Source: Bacteroidales bacterium (GTDB lineage: Bacteria; Bacteroidota; Bacteroidia; Bacteroidales; JAADJA01). Taken from it: DNA of 64,000 nucleotides. A model generated the notes under the pieces. The model saw only the letters and a list, made by a program, of their open reading frames with translations, did not search any database and was not told where the DNA came from. The position numbers and the translations under genes were made by a program. How positions within the stretch are numbered: position 1 is the first letter of the stretch; each line of letters begins with the position of its first letter. Location of the stretch: positions 1-64,000 of the forward strand of contig JAIOZL010000008.1 of assembly GCA_021740645.1 (NCBI GenBank), written 5' to 3'. Of the stretch, positions 3,498 through 14,284 are shown one piece after another.

Positions 3498-4922
3498 TTA
3501 TTTCCTTAAAAAACCGGTAGATAAATTGAACCAGTTTTGAGGCTCCCTTTGGATCATCCAAAACATCAGTTTGGTAAAAAACCAGGGATAGGCCCTGAAC
3601 AGCCTGAATATAGCGCCGGATTCTACCGTAAAACGGGCCTCCAGTTTATTTCTGATTTTAAATAATTCTTCTGCCGACAAATACCTGGTTCTGACGTTGG
3701 CCGCATAATGATTGTATTTGGTATAATCTGTCAGGTTGGTGATCAGGCCTTCTTTTATGAGGTCTTCCCGCAATTCAGTTTTTAAATGCGGTGTAAGGAT
3801 ATTAAACAACTGAAAGTCGATACCGATTTTTTTGGCAAAATTAAAATTCCTTACCAGGTCTTCTTCTTTGTCATCAGGATTGCCAAAGATAAACCCACCT
3901 ACCACAAGAATGCCGTTTTGTTTTAGTTCTTTTACTACCTGTTCCGTATCAGCAGTGGTCAGCTGATTACTTTTTTGCATGAACTCCAGGTTATCATCCG
4001 ATGCATTTTCTATCCCAAGGAAAACGGTTTTTGTACCCGATTCCGCCAATGCTTTTGCTAATCCCGGATTCTGTTTAAAGCCCCTTACACTTGCCTGCAC
4101 CGAAAAGTGTAAATCAAGCTTTGCTTTTTTTATGGCATCACTCAGTTCGATCAAACGTTTCCCATCAATGGTAATGTTATCATCGGTAATAAAGATAGAA
4201 CGGGCCCCATAACGTTTGGCATCTTCCAGGTCGGTAATGATACGGTCGATCGTAAATTTACGGAACGACTTTCCATACATATGGCGGATACTGCAGAAAT
4301 TACAGCTATACACACAGCCTCTTGAGGTTTCAATTACATCTCCCTGCCTGCCCAGCATATGAAAACCTTTTTTATAAATCCGGGCTGACCGCAAAGGTAT
4401 TTTGATATCCTCCGGTGCCATTAGCTTTTCAGGCCGTGGATTATGAAAAAAAGTTCCATTACGCCTGTATGATAGTCCCGGAACATGTTCAAAATCCTGT
4501 TTATGCAACAGTGCTTTCATAAACGCATTAAAAGGCAGCTCTCCTTCCCCATTGATCAGGAAATCGATGTTTTTCATATCCTCACTCTGGATGATGGTTT
4601 CGCTATCGGCGGTCACATGATAACCACCCATTACGATCTTCACCTCATTGGAATATTGCCTCACCACTTCGGCAAGCCCTAAGGCTGTCTGGTATTGAAA
4701 ACTCATGGCCGTTAAGCCTACTACATGGGGTTTAAATTCATTTAGAACCTTTTGAAGCTCTTTATGGGGGTTCCTGTCTTTTACCACCAGGTCGGCGATT
4801 TTTATTTCACACAATCCCTCATCCACATTGGCAGCCAGTGAAGCCAGGTTCAGGCTGGGTATCTTAGTCAGGCGATTAAAGCCCATTACTGTGCGGGGAT
4901 TGCCTACGAGTAATACTTTCAT
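3498..4922 (-). CDS. B12-binding domain-containing radical SAM protein
   Basis: CVYSCNFCSI (CxxxCxxC) with an N-terminal cobalamin-binding-like domain (VGLTAMSFQY, VMGGYHVT). Confidence 0.9.
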   Translation of the reverse strand: MKVLLVGNPRTVMGFNRLTKIPSLNLASLAANVDEGLCEIKIADLVVKDRNPHKELQKVLNEFKPHVVGLTAMSFQYQTALGLAEVVRQYSNEVKIVMGGYHVTADSETIIQSEDMKNIDFLINGEGELPFNAFMKALLHKQDFEHVPGLSYRRNGTFFHNPRPEKLMAPEDIKIPLRSARIYKKGFHMLGRQGDVIETSRGCVYSCNFCSIRHMYGKSFRKFTIDRIITDLEDAKRYGARSIFITDDNITIDGKRLIELSDAIKKAKLDLHFSVQASVRGFKQNPGLAKALAESGTKTVFLGIENASDDNLEFMQKSNQLTTADTEQVVKELKQNGILVVGGFIFGNPDDKEEDLVRNFNFAKKIGIDFQLFNILTPHLKTELREDLIKEGLITNLTDYTKYNHYAANVRTRYLSAEELFKIRNKLEARFTVESGAIFRLFRAYPWFFTKLMFWMIQREPQNWFNLSTGFLRK

Positions 4923-4967
4923 ATTTATTTTCTTAGTTCAACCATTAAAATCACCCTCTTGTTTTTA

Positions 4968-5729
4968 TTATTCCATCTCTACCACAACCGGGCAATGGTC
5001 CGAATGTTTTGCCTGGGGTAAAATTACGGCTCTTATTAATTTATCCTCTAAAGGCACTGCCACCATATTATAATCGATACGCCAGCCCAGGTTTTTTGCC
5101 CGGGCATTGGCCCGGTAGCTCCACCAGGAATAATGGTGGGGTTCCTTGTTAAAATACCGGAAAGAATCAATAAAGCCTGAATCAATAAATTTTCCGAGCC
5201 ACTCCCTTTCTTCGGGTAAAAAGCCTGAGTTTTTTGCATTTCTTACAGGGTCATGAATATCAATCGGCCGATGGCAAATATTGTAATCTCCCGAAATTAC
5301 CAGGTGAGGAATTTTTTTCTTTAATTTTTCGATATAAACATAAAAATCCTCAAGCCACAACATTTTAAAAGCCTGTCGTTCGTCCCCACTTGAACCCGAA
5401 GGATGATACACACTAATGACTGAAAAACCTTCATAATCTGCCCTGATTACCCGGCCTTCCCTGTCGTATTTTTCAACTCCCATTCCATATTCTATATGTT
5501 TTGGTTGAAGTTTACTTAATATAGCCACACCACTGTAGCCTCTCTTTTCAGCTGAATGGATGTAAACCTGGTATCCCATTTCTTCAAATATCTCTGAAGG
5601 GATTTGATCGGGTTGGGCTTTTGTTTCCTGTATGCAGACGATATCGGCATCGGTGCTTTTCAACCATTCGGGAAAACCTTTGGTAATGGCTGCCCTTATT
5701 CCGTTTACGTTGTAAGTGATTATTTTCAT
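4968..5729 (-). CDS. xth: Exodeoxyribonuclease III
   Basis: MKIITYNVNGIRAA, IQETKAQ, GDYNICHRPID, SDHCPVVVE. Confidence 0.93.
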   Translation of the reverse strand: MKIITYNVNGIRAAITKGFPEWLKSTDADIVCIQETKAQPDQIPSEIFEEMGYQVYIHSAEKRGYSGVAILSKLQPKHIEYGMGVEKYDREGRVIRADYEGFSVISVYHPSGSSGDERQAFKMLWLEDFYVYIEKLKKKIPHLVISGDYNICHRPIDIHDPVRNAKNSGFLPEEREWLGKFIDSGFIDSFRYFNKEPHHYSWWSYRANARAKNLGWRIDYNMVAVPLEDKLIRAVILPQAKHSDHCPVVVEME

Positions 5730-5809
5730 CTCTTAAAATGCGAAATTAGTTTTTTTTGGGTAATCATGAATTTTCAACAAGACAGAAATTGATTAATTGA
5801 AATTTGATG

Positions 5810-5817
5810 TAAATTCG
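5810..5817 (+). promoter_or_regulatory. Near-consensus Bacteroidetes -7 box (TAAATTCG) 7 nt upstream of the ClC start codon
   Basis: TAAATTCG compared with TAnnTTTG. Confidence 0.35.
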
Positions 5818-5824
5818 CAGCTTT

Positions 5825-7600
5825 ATGGAAAGGCAAAATATCCTAGAACGGTTTATTCAATGGCGGATGAAACACATCAGCGACAGGCAGTTTATGCTTA
5901 TACTGAGTGTGGTAATCGGGTTGAGCGTGGGGTTTGCAGCGGTTGTTATTAAAAACACTGTTCACTTTATAAGCTATTTATTAACAGCAGGATTTGCTAC
6001 GCAATACCAAAATTATTTATATTTTGTATATCCGGCTTTAGGTATCCTGGCTGCAGTACTGATCATAAAGTTTGTGATCAAGCAGCATGTAGGGCATGGT
6101 ATACCCAGTGTATTGTATGCCAAATCAAAGACCAATGGCCTGATCAAACCCCATAATATGTATTCCTCAATAATCACTTCAGCTTTGACAGTAGGATTTG
6201 GAGGATCAGTCGGATTAGAAGGCCCGACAGTGGCTACAGGTGCTGCTATAGGTTCGAATATTGGCAGAGTACTTCATTTGAATTATAAGCAGATCACTTC
6301 ATTATTGGGTTTTGCATGTGCAGGTGCAATGGCTGCTATTTTTAAAGCACCCATTGCTGCTATTGTTTTTGCCATGGAAGTAATTATGCTTGACCTTACC
6401 ATGTCGGCCCTGGTGCCCCTACTTACAGCTTCAGTTACGGCAGCATTAACCTCTTACTTTGTGTTTGGAATGCAGTCGCTATACACCTTTGAATTGAATG
6501 ATAAATTTCTCCTGAGTCACGTACCCTATTTTATTCTTTTTGGGATTCTCGCCGGATTGGTTTCCGTTTATTTTACCAAAATGTATATGGCGATAGGGAC
6601 ATTTTTTGATCGAATAAAGGCATGGTATTATAAAGTTATGATAGGTGGGGTGATGCTTGGAATCCTTATTTTCTTCTTCCCCTCACTTTACGGCGAAGGC
6701 TATACTGCTATTAATTCCTGCCTGGATGGAGACTATAGTTATGTGTATGATAACAGTATCTTTTATTCATTTAAAGATAATTTCCTGGTAATTACCGGGC
6801 TCATCCTGGTCATTGTATTGCTTAAAGTAATTGCTACTTCCATTACCTTCGGGAGTGGGGGTATTGGGGGAATATTTGCCCCATCCCTTTTTATGGGAGT
6901 AAATACCGGTTTATTTTTTGCTAAAGCCACTAACTACTTAAACCTGGGAAACCTCTCTGAAAACAATTTCGCACTGGTAGGTATGGCAGGACTTATTGCC
7001 GGGGTTATTCATGCCCCTTTAACAGCAATATTCCTTATTGCCGAAATTACAGGGGGGTATGGGCTTTTTATGCCGCTGATGATCGTGGCCACCATTTCGT
7101 ATGGAACGGCGAAATTGTTTAGTGCCAATTCTGTCTATACCATTCAGCTTGCTAAACGCGGGGAACTCATCACGCATCACAAAGACAAAGCCTTGTTGGC
7201 TTTAATGAAAATTGATTCACTGATTGAAACCAATTTTACGACCATTAAACCCGATGCCACCTTGCGCGACCTGGTAAAAGCAATTTCTGATTCACAACGA
7301 AATATATTCCCCGTTGTGGGTGAAAATCAAAAATTCCATGGCATTATTATCATGGATCAGGTAAGGCATATTATGTTCAATTCGGAATTATACGATACTA
7401 CCTATGTGCGAAACCTAATGTTTACACCCACAAATACAGTGGACGTTCATGACCCCATGGAGGAGGTTGCCGGTAAGTTTCAGCACTCAGGTAAATTTAA
7501 CCTGGTAGTACTGGATAATGGCAGGTATCTGGGCTTTGTTTCAAGAGCCAATGTGTTCTCTAAGTACAGGGAAATGCTCAAAGATTTTTCTGAACATTAA
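5825..7600 (+). CDS. ClC-family chloride channel/antiporter with C-terminal CBS domains
   Basis: GHGIPSV, GGSVGLEGPTVATGAAIGS, GSGGIGGIFAPSLFMG motifs; two CBS-like repeats at the C-terminus. Confidence 0.93.
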   Translation: MERQNILERFIQWRMKHISDRQFMLILSVVIGLSVGFAAVVIKNTVHFISYLLTAGFATQYQNYLYFVYPALGILAAVLIIKFVIKQHVGHGIPSVLYAKSKTNGLIKPHNMYSSIITSALTVGFGGSVGLEGPTVATGAAIGSNIGRVLHLNYKQITSLLGFACAGAMAAIFKAPIAAIVFAMEVIMLDLTMSALVPLLTASVTAALTSYFVFGMQSLYTFELNDKFLLSHVPYFILFGILAGLVSVYFTKMYMAIGTFFDRIKAWYYKVMIGGVMLGILIFFFPSLYGEGYTAINSCLDGDYSYVYDNSIFYSFKDNFLVITGLILVIVLLKVIATSITFGSGGIGGIFAPSLFMGVNTGLFFAKATNYLNLGNLSENNFALVGMAGLIAGVIHAPLTAIFLIAEITGGYGLFMPLMIVATISYGTAKLFSANSVYTIQLAKRGELITHHKDKALLALMKIDSLIETNFTTIKPDATLRDLVKAISDSQRNIFPVVGENQKFHGIIIMDQVRHIMFNSELYDTTYVRNLMFTPTNTVDVHDPMEEVAGKFQHSGKFNLVVLDNGRYLGFVSRANVFSKYREMLKDFSEH

Positions 7601-7616
7601 TTTACCAGAAAACAGA

Positions 7617-9542
7617 TCATTCCTTTTCTTTAATCTTTCCGTAAATCTCCTGGATCTCTTCCCTTATTGTTGTTGAATCCCATGCATGATCTGCATCATG
7701 GATAGGCTGTTGCTGTTCGGTTAGTAAAATATTCTCAAGCTGCTCCGAAAACTTTCTTGCTTCAGTGATGTACTTGGTATCATCATCTTTCCAGAGTTTA
7801 TGCAATTCTTTCATCACCATTTCATCGTGATGTTTAAAGGTTTTAGCCAGGCGGTGAGCCTGGTAATTATTATAACCCAGTTCAATCATTGCCTTCATTC
7901 CCAAATCGATTGCAGAATCATAAATTTCCATTCGTTTTGATTCTACCTTTAAATCTTCCAGCTCAAATGAATGGCGGATATCTACTGCCCGTGCAAATAC
8001 TTTGAGGTTTGGGTATTTCATTTTTACATGGGCCACCAGTTCATTGATCATCTCCCTTTGCTCCATAGCAACTACTAATACTTTTGCCCGTCCTGCACCG
8101 GCAATTTCAACCAGGTCGGGCCGTGTAGCGTCTCCATAATATACCTTAATCCCAAACTTTCGCAGTACCTGAATATTATTTGGATTGTCGTCGAGAATGG
8201 TTGTTTGTATTCCATTAGCTTTTAAAAAACGGCCCAGGACAACTCCAAACCTACCAAACCCTGCGATAATGACCGGGTTATCTTTTTCTTCCACATCATA
8301 CACTTTTTCTTTATTGGCGGTTTTCTCATAAAATGGCTGGATTACCTTTTCATTGAGAATTAGTAACAGCGGGGTTAGTAACATGGATAATGCAACAATA
8401 ATAAGCAACATACCTGAAGTTTCCGAATCAAAAATTGCATTCTGTGTACTAAAAGAAATCAATACAAAAGCAAACTCACCAGCCTGTGCCAGGGCAAAAG
8501 CGGTCAGCATCTCCTGGCCGGATTTTAATCCAAAACGTTTTCCCAAAAAATAAAGGATAAAAAATTTCACTGCCATTAATGTTGCCACAATTCCCAATAT
8601 CGTCCCCGGACTATCAAACAAAATGTGAAAGTCGATACTAGCCCCCACAGCAATAAAAAACAGGCCAAGAAGCAAACCTTTAAAAGGCTCGATGTCAGAC
8701 TCCAGCTCATGCCGGTATTCATTATCGGCAAGTACTACACCTGCAAGGAAAGTACCAAGTGCAGGCGATAATCCAACAGCATCCATAGCTACGGCTATTC
8801 CGATAACCAATAACAAAGCCGCTGCCGTAAAAATTTCCCTTAAACCGGTAGTGGCAATAAAACGAAATAAATAGCGTGCTAAATAACGTCCTGAGCCAAT
8901 GATGACCGCTACTACACCAATGATAATCAGTACCTGCTGCCAGCCGGGCAATGATGCAACACCACCTGCTTCATGCCCTGTATCAGCATGAATTAAATCT
9001 GATGCCAGACCCAGGTCAACCTGGTTCGCCATTAAAGGCAGTATGGCAAGAATAGGGATTACGGCTATATCCTGAAACAAGAGTACAGAAAAACTACCCT
9101 GGCCTCCCTGCGTTTTAAGCAGGCCCTTTTCAGCAAGGGTCTGAAGTACGATGGCTGTAGAGGACAAAGAAAGGATTAATCCAACTGACACAGACTGGTA
9201 GATATTTAATCCAAGAAAATAGGCGATAGTTCCGATCACTAACACGGACAGTACTACCTGCAATCCGCCAAGGCCAAAAATTGACCGTCGCATTTTCCAC
9301 AGGAGTGAGGGTTTAAGTTCAAGGCCTATGAGGAAAAGCATCATCACCACACCAAACTCAGCAAAATGCATGATATCTTCGCCTTCGTTTCCAACCAGTT
9401 TCAAAATATATGGGCCAATAAAAATTCCAGCCAATAAGTATCCCAATACCGATCCAAATCCCAGGCGTTTGGCTATGGGAACCGAAATTACCGCTGCCGA
9501 AAGGAATATTAAAGCCTGGTAAAAAAAGGTTTGTTCATGCAT
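7617..9542 (-). CDS. Monovalent cation:proton antiporter-2 (KefB/KefC type) with TrkA-N domain
   Basis: SLSSTAIVLQTLAEKG, ALGTFLAGVVLADNEYRHELESDIEPFKGLLLGLFFIAVG, then the Rossmann motif VIIAGFGRFGVVLGRFL. Confidence 0.92.
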   Translation of the reverse strand: MHEQTFFYQALIFLSAAVISVPIAKRLGFGSVLGYLLAGIFIGPYILKLVGNEGEDIMHFAEFGVVMMLFLIGLELKPSLLWKMRRSIFGLGGLQVVLSVLVIGTIAYFLGLNIYQSVSVGLILSLSSTAIVLQTLAEKGLLKTQGGQGSFSVLLFQDIAVIPILAILPLMANQVDLGLASDLIHADTGHEAGGVASLPGWQQVLIIIGVVAVIIGSGRYLARYLFRFIATTGLREIFTAAALLLVIGIAVAMDAVGLSPALGTFLAGVVLADNEYRHELESDIEPFKGLLLGLFFIAVGASIDFHILFDSPGTILGIVATLMAVKFFILYFLGKRFGLKSGQEMLTAFALAQAGEFAFVLISFSTQNAIFDSETSGMLLIIVALSMLLTPLLLILNEKVIQPFYEKTANKEKVYDVEEKDNPVIIAGFGRFGVVLGRFLKANGIQTTILDDNPNNIQVLRKFGIKVYYGDATRPDLVEIAGAGRAKVLVVAMEQREMINELVAHVKMKYPNLKVFARAVDIRHSFELEDLKVESKRMEIYDSAIDLGMKAMIELGYNNYQAHRLAKTFKHHDEMVMKELHKLWKDDDTKYITEARKFSEQLENILLTEQQQPIHDADHAWDSTTIREEIQEIYGKIKEKE

Positions 9543-9543
9543 G

Positions 9544-10155
9544 CTAATTGTTTTTTTTCTTCAACTCATGCAAATCATTCATGTACTTATGTTTCATGAT
9601 TTCATCAAGATCAAATATATTGTCCCTTAAGGCAATTAATACTTTTTTATAACTCCCGGCATGTGTATTATGATCTTCCGGAGTGATCAAATGTGTGCCA
9701 TGAATGACAAAAGGTGGAAGATATTCCATTTTACACAAAGTAACCGTTCGTTCAAATGGCACCAGGTACTGTCTTATAGTGTACTGATTAAATCCTCCTG
9801 GCTGGTATGCATCCTGGCTACCCCCTGTGGTAATGGCTGTCATTACTTGTTTTCCAACCAATGAATTTCCTTTGCTTCCGTATGCAAACCCATGCTCCAA
9901 AACCAAATCAATCCATTCCTTTAAAATAGATGGTGCACTTTACCAATAAAATGGATGATGCCAAACGATAATGTCATGTTCAAGCAACAATTGCTGTTCA
10001 CGTTGTATGTTGATATTAAAATCAGGATATTGATCGTACAAATTGTGAAAAGTGATTCCCTCAATGTCCTTTACCAATTCTATCATCTTATTGTTTATCC
10101 TTGATTTGTGAAGGACAGGATGAGCAAATAAGATTAATATTTTATTATGAATCAT
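9544..10155 (-). pseudogene. KefF/KefG-like NAD(P)H oxidoreductase gene interrupted by one in-frame TAA (9940-9942)
   Basis: ORFs 9940-10155 and 9544-9906 are in the same frame. Continuous translation: ...[54 protein letters not shown]... Confidence 0.85.
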
Positions 10156-10494: not shown

Positions 10495-10749
10495 ATGGAA
10501 GAACCCTATTGTCCAAATATACGTACTTGTAAACTGGTAAACGAAGAAGGTTTTACCGGTGACGAGATTCAAAGAAAAAAATATATTGAGCAGTATTGCT
10601 TTACGGAAAACCCAAAATGGTTTGAATGTAAAAGGTATATGACCAAATCAGAACTAAATTTTTGCCCTGATTTTGTGCTGCCCGATACGGAATTATCTAT
10701 TGATGAGATCATGGATAAATTTGATAACGAAACTTTTAATTTAGAATAA
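10495..10749 (+). CDS. Small Cys-containing protein (possible Fe-S or metal-binding), head of the dsrC-like cluster
   Basis: CPNIRTC...YCFTENPKWFECKRY Cys pattern; co-directional and 19 bp before dsrC-like. Confidence 0.6.
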   Translation: MEEPYCPNIRTCKLVNEEGFTGDEIQRKKYIEQYCFTENPKWFECKRYMTKSELNFCPDFVLPDTELSIDEIMDKFDNETFNLE

Positions 10750-10768
10750 TCACTAACACGAGATAACA

Positions 10769-11086
10769 ATGGCAACACTTGACATAGACGGAAAAACATT
10801 TGAGGTGGATGGCGATGGTTTTTTAGCAAAGCCCGAAATATGGAACAAAGAGGTAGCTGCATTAATTGCTAAATACGATGGAATTGGTGAAATGAATGAG
10901 AAACACTGGGCAATCATTGATATTATCCGCAATAGTTACGAAGAAAAGGGTATGGCACCAATGATCCGGACAATATGTAAAGAAACCGGACTCCGTCTTC
11001 GCGAGATTTACGAACTATTTCCACTGGGGCCTGCTCGTGGAGCCTGTCGTGTGGCCGGTTTACCTAAACCCGATGGTTGTGTTTAA
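10769..11086 (+). CDS. dsrC: TusE/DsrC/DsvC-family sulfur carrier protein
   Basis: C-terminal arm GPARGACRVAGLPKPDGCV has both DsrC cysteines (C-x10-C); N-terminal DGDGFLAKPEIWNKEVA. Confidence 0.92.
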   Translation: MATLDIDGKTFEVDGDGFLAKPEIWNKEVAALIAKYDGIGEMNEKHWAIIDIIRNSYEEKGMAPMIRTICKETGLRLREIYELFPLGPARGACRVAGLPKPDGCV

Positions 11087-11101
11087 TTTAATCCTGTAAA
11101 T

Positions 11102-11719
11102 ATGATGTGGTTTCAGTGGCTTGCCTTGGCTGCCATATTGATCTGTACGATAAGTTGCTTGTTTCATTTCTTTCGATTGCTCAGGTTGGGTAAACCCAGG
11201 GATTATTCTCAGCAAAGAGGGAACATTGGATCAGCGGTCAGGTATTCATTTACCGGAGCAATGAGCCCTGCCAGTAAGGAATCAGCATTTTTATATCTCC
11301 CTACATATACGGCCGGAATCTTTTATCATATTGGAACTTTTCTTTCGATAACAGTACTTGCACTTATGCTTCTTCAAATCTTTCCGGTTTCCGCAGGGTT
11401 ATGGGTCGCAATTATTTTGGGAATTACTTCTTTAAGTGGAATTGCCATCTTTATTAAACGCCTAAATAAGAAAGAACTTCGTGCACTTTCCAACCCGGAC
11501 GATTACATTTCTAATATGCTGGTTACCCTGTTCCAGGTATTTACAGTAATGATACTAATATTCCCTGATTTTGAAATGGCCTATTATGTCACGGCCAGTT
11601 TGCTCTTTTTATACTTACCAATAGGAAAACTAAAACATACTGTTTATTTTTTTGCTGCCCGTTACCATCTTGGGTTTTTCTTTGGATGGAGAGGAATATG
11701 GCCACCTAAAGAAGGATAA
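11102..11719 (+). CDS. Membrane cytochrome b-like subunit (NarI/DsrM/TmcC-like)
   Basis: Multi-TM protein with His residues in helices (LFHFFR, IFYHIGTFL, KLKHTVYFFAARYHLGFFFG); directly upstream of the HdrD-like gene. Confidence 0.75.
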   Translation: MMWFQWLALAAILICTISCLFHFFRLLRLGKPRDYSQQRGNIGSAVRYSFTGAMSPASKESAFLYLPTYTAGIFYHIGTFLSITVLALMLLQIFPVSAGLWVAIILGITSLSGIAIFIKRLNKKELRALSNPDDYISNMLVTLFQVFTVMILIFPDFEMAYYVTASLLFLYLPIGKLKHTVYFFAARYHLGFFFGWRGIWPPKEG

Positions 11720-11720
11720 C

Positions 11721-13040
11721 ATGGAGAGACCAACACAAGAAAAGATAAAAAAAGGGCTTGAGGTACTCAATGATAAAGCAGATAGTAAGCTTTTAACCCA
11801 CATGAACAGTTGCGTGCATTGCGGCTTATGTGCAAAAAGCTGTGTTTATTACAATGCAAATCCAGAAGCAAAATTTATCCCGGCCACGAAAGTTGATTTG
11901 GTAGCCTCAATTTACAGGCGGTATAATACCTTAAGCGGTAAATTTTTACCAGGTCTGGTCGGCGCCCGGGAACTTGATGAAAAAACAATGGATGAAATGG
12001 TGGACCTGCTTTTTGGTGCATGCACGATGTGCGGCAGATGTGTGAAGCATTGTTCTGTGGGGGTAGATATCAGTTATGTGGTTAGAAAAGGTAGGGAAAT
12101 GTTATCCAATATGGGCCTTGTTCCGGAATCCCTTCAATCTACTATTAACTCTGCACTGGAAACCGGAAACAACATGGCCATACCAACAGAGGAATTTGTA
12201 GAAACCCTTCAATGGCTCGAGGAGGATCTTCAGTTTGAAGTGAATGATGACAACGCAGAAATCCCCCTGGATCAAATGGGTAAAGATGTACTTTATACCC
12301 TTAACCCCAGAGAACCGAAATTCTTTCCACTTTCAATTTCGGCCATGGCTAAAGTATTCCATGTGGCAAATGAAAGCTGGACCATTTCCACAAAAATGTA
12401 CGATGTAACCAATTATGCATATTATTCAGGGAATCTGGAAGAAGCTGCAATAATTGCCCTTCGGCTGCATGACGAAATGGAAAACCTGGAAGCGAAAACC
12501 TGCGTTTTGGCTGAATGCGGTCATGGCTCACGAGCCTTCAGATGGGAAGGGCCGAATTATATAAAAAAAGAATATCCTTTTGAGGTTATTTCCTCTGTGG
12601 AGCTATTAGCAAAATATCTCAGGAATGGAAGAATAAAGACAAACCCTGCTTTGATCACCGATAAAGTTACATTGCATGATCCTTGTAATTTGGTTCGAAG
12701 TGGTGGTATTTGCCAGGAGCAAAGATATATCCTTGGAAAATGCGTGACTGATTTTGTAGAAATGACACCCCACGGTATCGACAATATTTGCTGTGGTGGA
12801 GGTGGTGGCCAGTTGGCCATGAGCGAATACAACGAAAGAAGAATGGCCATTGGCAAACTTAAAGCGGAACAAATTAGAGCAACGGGTGCTAAGATCGTAG
12901 CAACGCCATGTCATAATTGTGTAGATCAGCTTACCCAGCTTAATGTCACCTACAAGCTCAACATTCAAATCAAAACTTTGTGTGAAATTGTGGCAGATGC
13001 TATTGTTTTAGAAAATCAAACTGAAAATGAAGAAAGCTAA
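11721..13040 (+). CDS. HdrD/DsrK/TmcB-like Fe-S protein with two 4Fe-4S motifs and CCG domains
   Basis: CVHCGLCAKSC, CTMCGRCVKHC, HDPCNLVRSGG...CCGGGGGQLAMSEYN...TPCHNC. The supplied ORF start (11652) overlaps the previous gene; ATG 11721 (MERPTQEK) is the likely start. Confidence 0.88.
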   Translation: MERPTQEKIKKGLEVLNDKADSKLLTHMNSCVHCGLCAKSCVYYNANPEAKFIPATKVDLVASIYRRYNTLSGKFLPGLVGARELDEKTMDEMVDLLFGACTMCGRCVKHCSVGVDISYVVRKGREMLSNMGLVPESLQSTINSALETGNNMAIPTEEFVETLQWLEEDLQFEVNDDNAEIPLDQMGKDVLYTLNPREPKFFPLSISAMAKVFHVANESWTISTKMYDVTNYAYYSGNLEEAAIIALRLHDEMENLEAKTCVLAECGHGSRAFRWEGPNYIKKEYPFEVISSVELLAKYLRNGRIKTNPALITDKVTLHDPCNLVRSGGICQEQRYILGKCVTDFVEMTPHGIDNICCGGGGGQLAMSEYNERRMAIGKLKAEQIRATGAKIVATPCHNCVDQLTQLNVTYKLNIQIKTLCEIVADAIVLENQTENEES

Positions 13041-13123
13041 TTTTATTCTTTGCTAAATAATGCAAATGACAAACGAATGATGGGTAATAAATTTGAAAAC
13101 TGAATAACAAAAACAACAGGAAT

Positions 13124-14284
13124 ATGAGTGACTTAATATATTTAGACAATTCAGCGACCACCTTTCCCAAACCTGAAGTGGTGTATGACTTCATGAGCGA
13201 TTTCTATCGTAAACATGGGGTCAACCCAGGCCGGTCCGGTTTTGATGCGGCTATCGAAACAGAAGAAATAGTGCATTCAACCCGTAAGATGCTTGCCGAC
13301 CTTTTTAACGGGGATGACCCTAACCGCTTAACCTTTAGCTATAATGCAAGTGATTCATTAAACATGATCATACAGGGACTAGCCGAAAGGGGGGATCATA
13401 TTATTACCACTTTTCTTGAACATAATTCAGTGCTTCGCCCATTGCATCATCTTCAAATAAATGGGGTGGCTGAGATTACTCATATTCCATTTGATGAAAA
13501 TGGGTATGTAAACCCCGATGATTTTAAAAAAGAAATGAAATCCAATACCAAAATGGTTGTGGTTAACCATAGTTCCAATGTTATTGGCACCATTCAACCA
13601 CTTGCTGAAATCGGCAGGATTTGCAAGGAAAAAGGGGTAATTTTTGTTGTAGATGCCAGCCAGAGTGCCGGTGCTATTCATATCGACATGAAAGCGATGG
13701 GTATTGATGTGGTGGTATTTACGGGCCATAAATGCCTGATGGGGCCAACCGGTATTGGAGGATCTTATGTGATGGAAAATGTCCCTGTAAAATATACCCG
13801 GTTTGGAGGAACTGGTGTACGTTCAGCGGTAAAAACCCACCTGGAAGAATTTCCCTACAGGCTTGAATGTGGAACCTTAAACATTGTGGGTGTTGCAGGA
13901 TTGAATGCCGGTGTAAGCTGGGTTAATGAACAGGGAATGGAAAACCTGCATAAAAAAGAAATGGCTTTGTGGACCAAACTCAGAGATGCTTTTCATCAGA
14001 TAGAGGGCGTGATAACCTATTGTGCAAATAACAACAAGGATCAAAACCCGGTGCTCTGTTTTAATGTGAAAGGTTTTGAAGCCGGCGATGTGGGAACCAT
14101 GCTGGATGTGGATTACAATATCGCGACACGAACAGGATTACATTGCGCACCAAAAGTACATGAAGGAATAGGTACATTTGATATTCACGGAACTGTACGG
14201 ATGAGTGTAGGACCATTTAATACCGAAGATCACATCAATCAGGCAATAGCAGCGGTTAAAGAAATCGCCTCTATCCGGAATTAA
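13124..14284 (+). CDS. Class V PLP-dependent aminotransferase / cysteine desulfurase-like (EF2568-type)
   Basis: YLDNSATTFPKP, VDASQSAGAIHIDMKAMGIDVVVFTGHKCLMGPTGIGG, RTGLHCAP...GTVRMSVGPFNT. Confidence 0.88.
   Translation: MSDLIYLDNSATTFPKPEVVYDFMSDFYRKHGVNPGRSGFDAAIETEEIVHSTRKMLADLFNGDDPNRLTFSYNASDSLNMIIQGLAERGDHIITTFLEHNSVLRPLHHLQINGVAEITHIPFDENGYVNPDDFKKEMKSNTKMVVVNHSSNVIGTIQPLAEIGRICKEKGVIFVVDASQSAGAIHIDMKAMGIDVVVFTGHKCLMGPTGIGGSYVMENVPVKYTRFGGTGVRSAVKTHLEEFPYRLECGTLNIVGVAGLNAGVSWVNEQGMENLHKKEMALWTKLRDAFHQIEGVITYCANNNKDQNPVLCFNVKGFEAGDVGTMLDVDYNIATRTGLHCAPKVHEGIGTFDIHGTVRMSVGPFNTEDHINQAIAAVKEIASIRN

Follow-up and report, generated by a model that had tools for sequence, protein, structure and literature searches.

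What does a DsrC protein with two conserved cysteines do in a genome that encodes no sulfite reductase? The question is raised by a locus of a Bacteroidales bacterium (JAADJA01; assembly GCA_021740645.1), at positions 10495-14284 of the first 64,000 nucleotides of contig JAIOZL010000008.1, the stretch analysed here and called the window. The second DsrC cysteine occurs almost only together with DsrAB (PMC3397948), and the clade of DsrC proteins described here is a large exception to that rule. The dsrC gene stands in a fixed order with genes for a membrane subunit (cytb), a DsrK-like Fe-S protein and a cysteine desulfurase (Csd), and dsrC-cytb-dsrK-csd is a real, dedicated unit with obligate linkage. 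Judged from the sequences, there is about an even chance that it is a DsrAB-independent module reducing cysteine-derived sulfur to H2S with menaquinol. An earlier note on this DNA had described five co-directional open reading frames (ORFs), and all five are present on the + strand, in one direction and with short gaps:

10495..10749, + strand: small five-cysteine protein, 84 residues, of an unnamed family; an optional first gene of the module, recognised by its conserved cysteines and its position upstream of dsrC
10769..11086, + strand: two-cysteine DsrC, 105 residues, a reductive-type length (PF04358; Cys93, Cys104 and the family-specific Cys70)
11102..11719, + strand: NarI/DsrM/HmcE-like membrane subunit, 205 residues, five transmembrane helices, cytochrome b candidate (weak HmcE/TmcC matches, structure model, NarI fold)
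11721..13040, + strand: DsrK/TmcB/HmcF/HdrD-like catalytic subunit, 439 residues (two 4Fe-4S motifs, one CCG domain)
13124..14284, + strand: cysteine desulfurase (Csd) of the TIGR01977 family, 386 residues (TIGR01977 score, Lys203, Cys341)

Absence of sulfite reductase

The earlier note had seen no sulfite reductase in the window, and this extends to the whole genome. The assembly is 95.8% complete and has no match to NIR_SIR (PF01077), and with this domain wholly absent the search found neither dsrAB nor asrC nor an assimilatory siroheme reductase; aprA had no match at cut-off either. Among 49 module-bearing genomes, mostly metagenome-assembled genomes (MAGs), dsrA (TIGR02064) was above cut-off in none. 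DsrAB, one of the marks of the dissimilatory Dsr pathway, is therefore lacking in the window's genome and, at the level of dsrA, in all 49. Absence from one MAG is weak evidence, but absence across the 49 together is not. These counts also reject the idea, left open by the earlier note, that the locus is an ordinary dsr satellite with a complete pathway elsewhere.

The single dsrA match is a weak fragment on a 1.7-kb contig (L086, G044:C124) that lies alongside a Chlorobi-type dsrC, and is probably contamination of that MAG. Two module-bearing genomes (L128, G032:C100, and L129, G043:C51) carry aprA and Qmo-type genes with no dsrA match; they are either incomplete MAGs or have a dsrAB-free adenylylsulfate (APS) pathway.

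Conservation of the module

The window's DsrC was used to scan one genome per species, giving 245 relatives, and the best 80 of these 245 loci were studied; linkage was counted on contigs long enough to show the gene in question. The order dsrC-cytb-dsrK-csd is kept throughout, with cytb in 78 of 78 loci, the dsrK-like gene in 75 of 75 and csd in 63 of 63, on the module strand in 62 of the 63. Distances among the DsrK-like proteins and among the Csd proteins co-vary (r=0.78; 0 of 999 permutations as high). Conservation in 80 loci rules out a chance arrangement. The lack of synteny that the earlier note thought would speak against a dedicated module was not found, since synteny is essentially complete where contigs suffice. 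What the sequences establish is that the genes are there, that their catalytic residues are intact, that they are obligately linked and diverge together, and that sulfite reductase is missing.

As labelled, the hosts of the 80 loci are Bacteroidota and Ignavibacteria, mostly metagenome-assembled, with one 'Clostridia', and many come from sediments and a sulfur spring. They include Butyricimonas, which are cultured gut bacteria and fermenting anaerobes. The distribution is patchy: counting the window's own genome, 5 of the 17 genomes in the genus carry the module, as do 3 of 395 in the class and 2 of 299 sampled from the phylum. The earlier note's idea of a stand-alone redox module in a Bacteroidota is supported, and the module also occurs in Ignavibacteria; the direction proposed there, from thiol or persulfide to quinone, is less likely than electron flow from menaquinol to DsrC.

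Components of the module

DsrC belongs to the DsrC/TusE family, scoring 119.4 bits against a cut-off of 24.9 in Pfam (PF04358) and 101.4 against 53.5 in NCBIfam (TIGR03342). Cys93 and Cys104 sit at the positions of Desulfovibrio-type DsrC, so it is the full two-cysteine protein that the earlier note had taken it for. C70, R90, C93 and C104 are present in 81 of 81 module DsrCs, all of which thereby carry the cysteine pair that is the other mark of the dissimilatory Dsr pathway; Cys70 is absent from every other DsrC compared. The protein is 50% identical, gap-free, to Desulfomicrobium DsrC (2xsj). In a tree with few outgroups the module DsrCs form one clade (support 0.87).

The membrane subunit has weak NCBIfam matches to HmcE and TmcC, and its AlphaFold2 model has five transmembrane helices (pLDDT 88.8). 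NarI is the best PDB fold (probability 1.00, TM about 0.5, but E about 0.02), and no solved relative was found by sequence. The earlier assignment as a NarI/DsrM/TmcC-like subunit agrees with this. Across the module loci H76 and H179 are essentially invariant, and H22 and H189 semi-conserved. At least one heme b is likely, while a second heme is uncertain.

The DsrK-like protein scores 298 bits with HmcF (NF045711; equivalog cut-off 750), 292 with TmcB (NF045724; 735) and 229 with DsrK (NF045796; 400), below the cut-off in each case, and its placement among DsrK, TmcB, HmcF and HdrD rests on these family scores. The DsrK/TmcB/HdrD-like character given by the earlier note is retained, but the plural "CCG domains" is not, as Pfam detects one, with two 4Fe-4S motifs. 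Conserved cysteines are C31/34/37/41, C101/104/107/111, C322, C357-C358 and C397/C400. The sole solved relative is a distant Fe-S reductase (9ojn). By inspection, the other CCG proteins of the genome are LutA-type and ETF-quinone oxidoreductase-like, and this is the only one of DsrK/HdrD type that was seen, which makes it the natural and only evident partner of the adjacent DsrC.

Csd scores 431.9 bits with TIGR01977 in NCBIfam (cut-off 377), and at least 95% of 65 homologues keep its pyridoxal phosphate (PLP) Lys203 and catalytic Cys341. The class V PLP enzyme of the earlier note is accordingly cysteine desulfurase-like, as proposed there.

The small protein has no Pfam or NCBIfam match and no relative in the PDB, and its model shows no confident fold (pLDDT 55). 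The cysteine pattern noticed earlier is real: C6, C12, C35, C45 and C57 are conserved in at least 95% of 38 homologues. A homologue lies directly upstream of dsrC in 36 of the 75 loci with room for it.

Proposed function

We infer the direction, substrate and energy yield of the module as follows. Csd would strip L-cysteine of its sulfur, bind it as a Cys341 persulfide and release alanine. The persulfide would pass to Cys104 of DsrC in one step, or by way of TusA and DsrE2 where the operon is extended, a transfer seen in vitro with other proteins. When supplied with cysteine in vitro, IscS places a persulfide on the penultimate cysteine of DsrC, and DsrC is bound by DsrK (PMC3397948). Cys93 would then attack the persulfide, releasing H2S and leaving a Cys93-Cys104 disulfide, as the chemistry of DsrC suggests. 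By homology to DsrMK and HdrDE, the CCG Fe-S site of the DsrK-like protein would reduce this disulfide with electrons from menaquinol delivered through the NarI-like cytochrome b. Reduction of the DsrC trisulfide by DsrMK(JOP), with release of sulfide, has been described (PMC10504309, PMC6470260). The net reaction would be cysteine + menaquinol -> alanine + H2S + menaquinone. This would serve as an electron sink, and could add to the proton-motive force if the quinol were oxidised on the outer face.

The constant presence of the desulfurase points to cysteine as the sulfur source, and sulfite is excluded by the missing NIR_SIR protein in the window's genome and the lack of dsrA above cut-off in the 49 genomes. 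The fermenting lifestyle of Butyricimonas favours quinol oxidation over quinone reduction. An anaerobic "cysteine respiration", that is, a menaquinol-dependent, energy-conserving and sulfite reductase-free reduction of DsrC-persulfide to H2S in gut and sediment Bacteroidota and Ignavibacteria, is put forward more tentatively, at somewhat below even chances.

Several points weigh against cysteine-sulfur reduction. The direction of electron flow is left unfixed by sequence. The DsrK-like and membrane subunits fall under every named-family cut-off, so that partner and quinone use are assigned by homology, and the number of hemes is uncertain because only the H76/H179 pair is strictly conserved. 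TIGR01977 is a "hypothetical equivalog", and the substrate of Csd could differ, for example selenocysteine. The small five-cysteine protein has no explained place in the scheme.

Extended operons and neighbouring genes

DsrE2 directly follows csd in about ten of the 80 loci, with TusA next in eight of these (L017, L022, L029, L045, L049, L054, L056 and L076). The order csd, DsrE2, TusA comprises the same carrier types as the relay IscS, TusA, TusBCD, TusE. Beyond TusA, these eight operons have genes for an MvhD-like protein, a fusion of HdrA with glutamate synthase beta, and an HdrA, and most close with a QmoC-like subunit, giving an Hdr/Qmo-like complex tied to DsrC. The genomes concerned mostly lack aprA. 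No QmoC-like match was found in the window's own genome.

In many extended loci the upstream side carries a divergent Crp regulator as well as genes for a NifX-like protein and a second class V PLP enzyme. The second PLP enzyme (roughly 490 residues; L029:4131-5597, with equivalents about -1500 from dsrC) is SufS-like, with 141 bits, below the cut-off. Among the loci without the small five-cysteine ORF, many have the gene for this enzyme as the immediate upstream neighbour of dsrC.

Elsewhere in the window's genome (L100:6522-9101, G000:C57), a TusA-like protein, DsrE and a TusA-like plus OsmC-domain protein are encoded in a row, followed by pieces of a cobalamin-independent methionine synthase in two ORFs. 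In the window itself, an in-frame TAA at 9940-9942 (- strand) lies in a kefF-like flavodoxin gene next to kefB, at a point where the relative in L103 reads through; this is either a broken gene or an assembly error.

Relation to known systems

The DsrC-DsrMK(JOP) system of sulfate and sulfite reducers shares with the module a two-cysteine DsrC, a DsrK-like CCG Fe-S subunit, a putative NarI-like membrane subunit of DsrM type and, presumably, menaquinol-dependent disulfide chemistry of the same kind at DsrC. The module differs in having no DsrAB, no conserved JOP genes in its flanks, a DsrK-like protein below the DsrK cut-off, an obligate cysteine desulfurase and the additional invariant Cys70. 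The Fe-S subunit (HmcF, TmcB) and the membrane subunit (HmcE, TmcC) find their best NCBIfam matches in TmcBC and HmcEF of the Desulfovibrio transmembrane complexes, but the scores are far below the equivalog cut-offs, and neither a multiheme cytochrome c nor any other Tmc/Hmc subunit is conserved in the flanks. HdrDE of methanogens pairs a membrane cytochrome b with a CCG Fe-S subunit for disulfide reduction, as the module may do; the substrate here would be a protein disulfide, that of DsrC, rather than CoM-S-S-CoB, and one CCG domain is recognisable. The IscS-TusA-TusBCD-TusE relay of E. coli likewise joins a cysteine desulfurase to an acceptor of the DsrC family, with TusA and a DsrE-type carrier present in the extended operons. 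The DsrC of the module, however, retains both cysteines and has a redox partner in the membrane, and no MnmA-type target is linked.

Alternative explanations

The opposite direction, in which the DsrK-like/cytochrome b pair would oxidise the DsrC dithiol or persulfide and pass electrons to menaquinone, is unlikely. The module would then belong to sulfide or sulfane-sulfur oxidation with SQR, DsrE2 and TusA, and Csd would merely prime DsrC with sulfur. A cluster of SQR-like, DUF1641, one-cysteine DsrC and DsrE2 genes lies immediately upstream of the module in 4 of the 80 loci (L029, L056, L068 and L071). It is also found in other Bacteroidota (L108-L111) and, preceded by a Crp regulator, on another contig of the window's genome (L099, G000:C21:137001-153000; 4744-8404); its one-cysteine DsrC fits the rule on the second cysteine (PMC3397948). 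In sulfur oxidisers DsrC is fed by carriers of the DsrE type (PMC3397948), and sediments and a sulfur spring are frequent origins of the hosts. However, with neither rDsrAB nor, at cut-off, aprA, the window's genome has no known enzyme for the further oxidation of sulfur bound to DsrC. The insertion of the Chlorobi (oxidative) DsrC is missing from the module DsrC, and an oxidation pathway would not be expected to include a cysteine desulfurase.

A biosynthetic relay is quite improbable. Csd and DsrC would act as IscS and TusE do, for tRNA thiolation or another sulfur or selenium product, and the membrane pair would only keep DsrC reduced. Csd, TusA, DsrE2 and a DsrC-family protein are indeed the parts of a Tus-type relay (PMC3397948). 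TusE-type proteins, however, have a single C-terminal cysteine, whereas both are invariant in the module DsrC, which scores 63 bits with PRK11508 (TusE; cut-off 191), and a separate one-cysteine DsrC is encoded in the same genome. The patchiness within the genus and rarity in the class are unlike a core tRNA pathway, and the flanks of the loci contain no linked biosynthetic target gene.

About as improbable is a general thiol-disulfide redox hub of DsrC and the membrane pair in which Csd matures the Fe-S clusters of the DsrK-like protein: DsrK-type proteins have several clusters each, and Desulfovibrio vulgaris DsrC, according to work cited in PMC10504309, serves fermentative metabolism through FlxABCD-HdrABC, beyond sulfite reduction, but a role for csd in Fe-S assembly is weakened by the full set of sufBCDS genes on contig C28, which includes a separate SufS, the operon has no scaffold protein, and the extended operons place sulfur carriers after csd.

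Implications

No description of the module was found in the open-access literature on DsrC together with Bacteroidota, Bacteroidales, Butyricimonas, Ignavibacteria or cysteine desulfurase; the Bacteroidota cases in PMC10591310 and PMC6338057 are dsrAB-based. A two-cysteine DsrC is usually taken as a mark of DsrAB-based sulfur metabolism (PMC3397948), but the module clade keeps both cysteines, and its partners are instead a cysteine desulfurase and a redox pair that probably faces the quinone pool. Cultured carriers make the function of the module directly testable. If the reduction of cysteine-derived sulfur proposed here is true, anaerobes including the cultured gut Butyricimonas would have a quinol-linked route from cysteine to H2S, suggesting unrecognised H2S production and electron disposal, invisible to surveys that look for dsrAB, asr and cysteine desulfhydrase genes. 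The DsrC-HdrD couple would then serve electron disposal in general, instead of being tied to sulfite reduction as an accessory.

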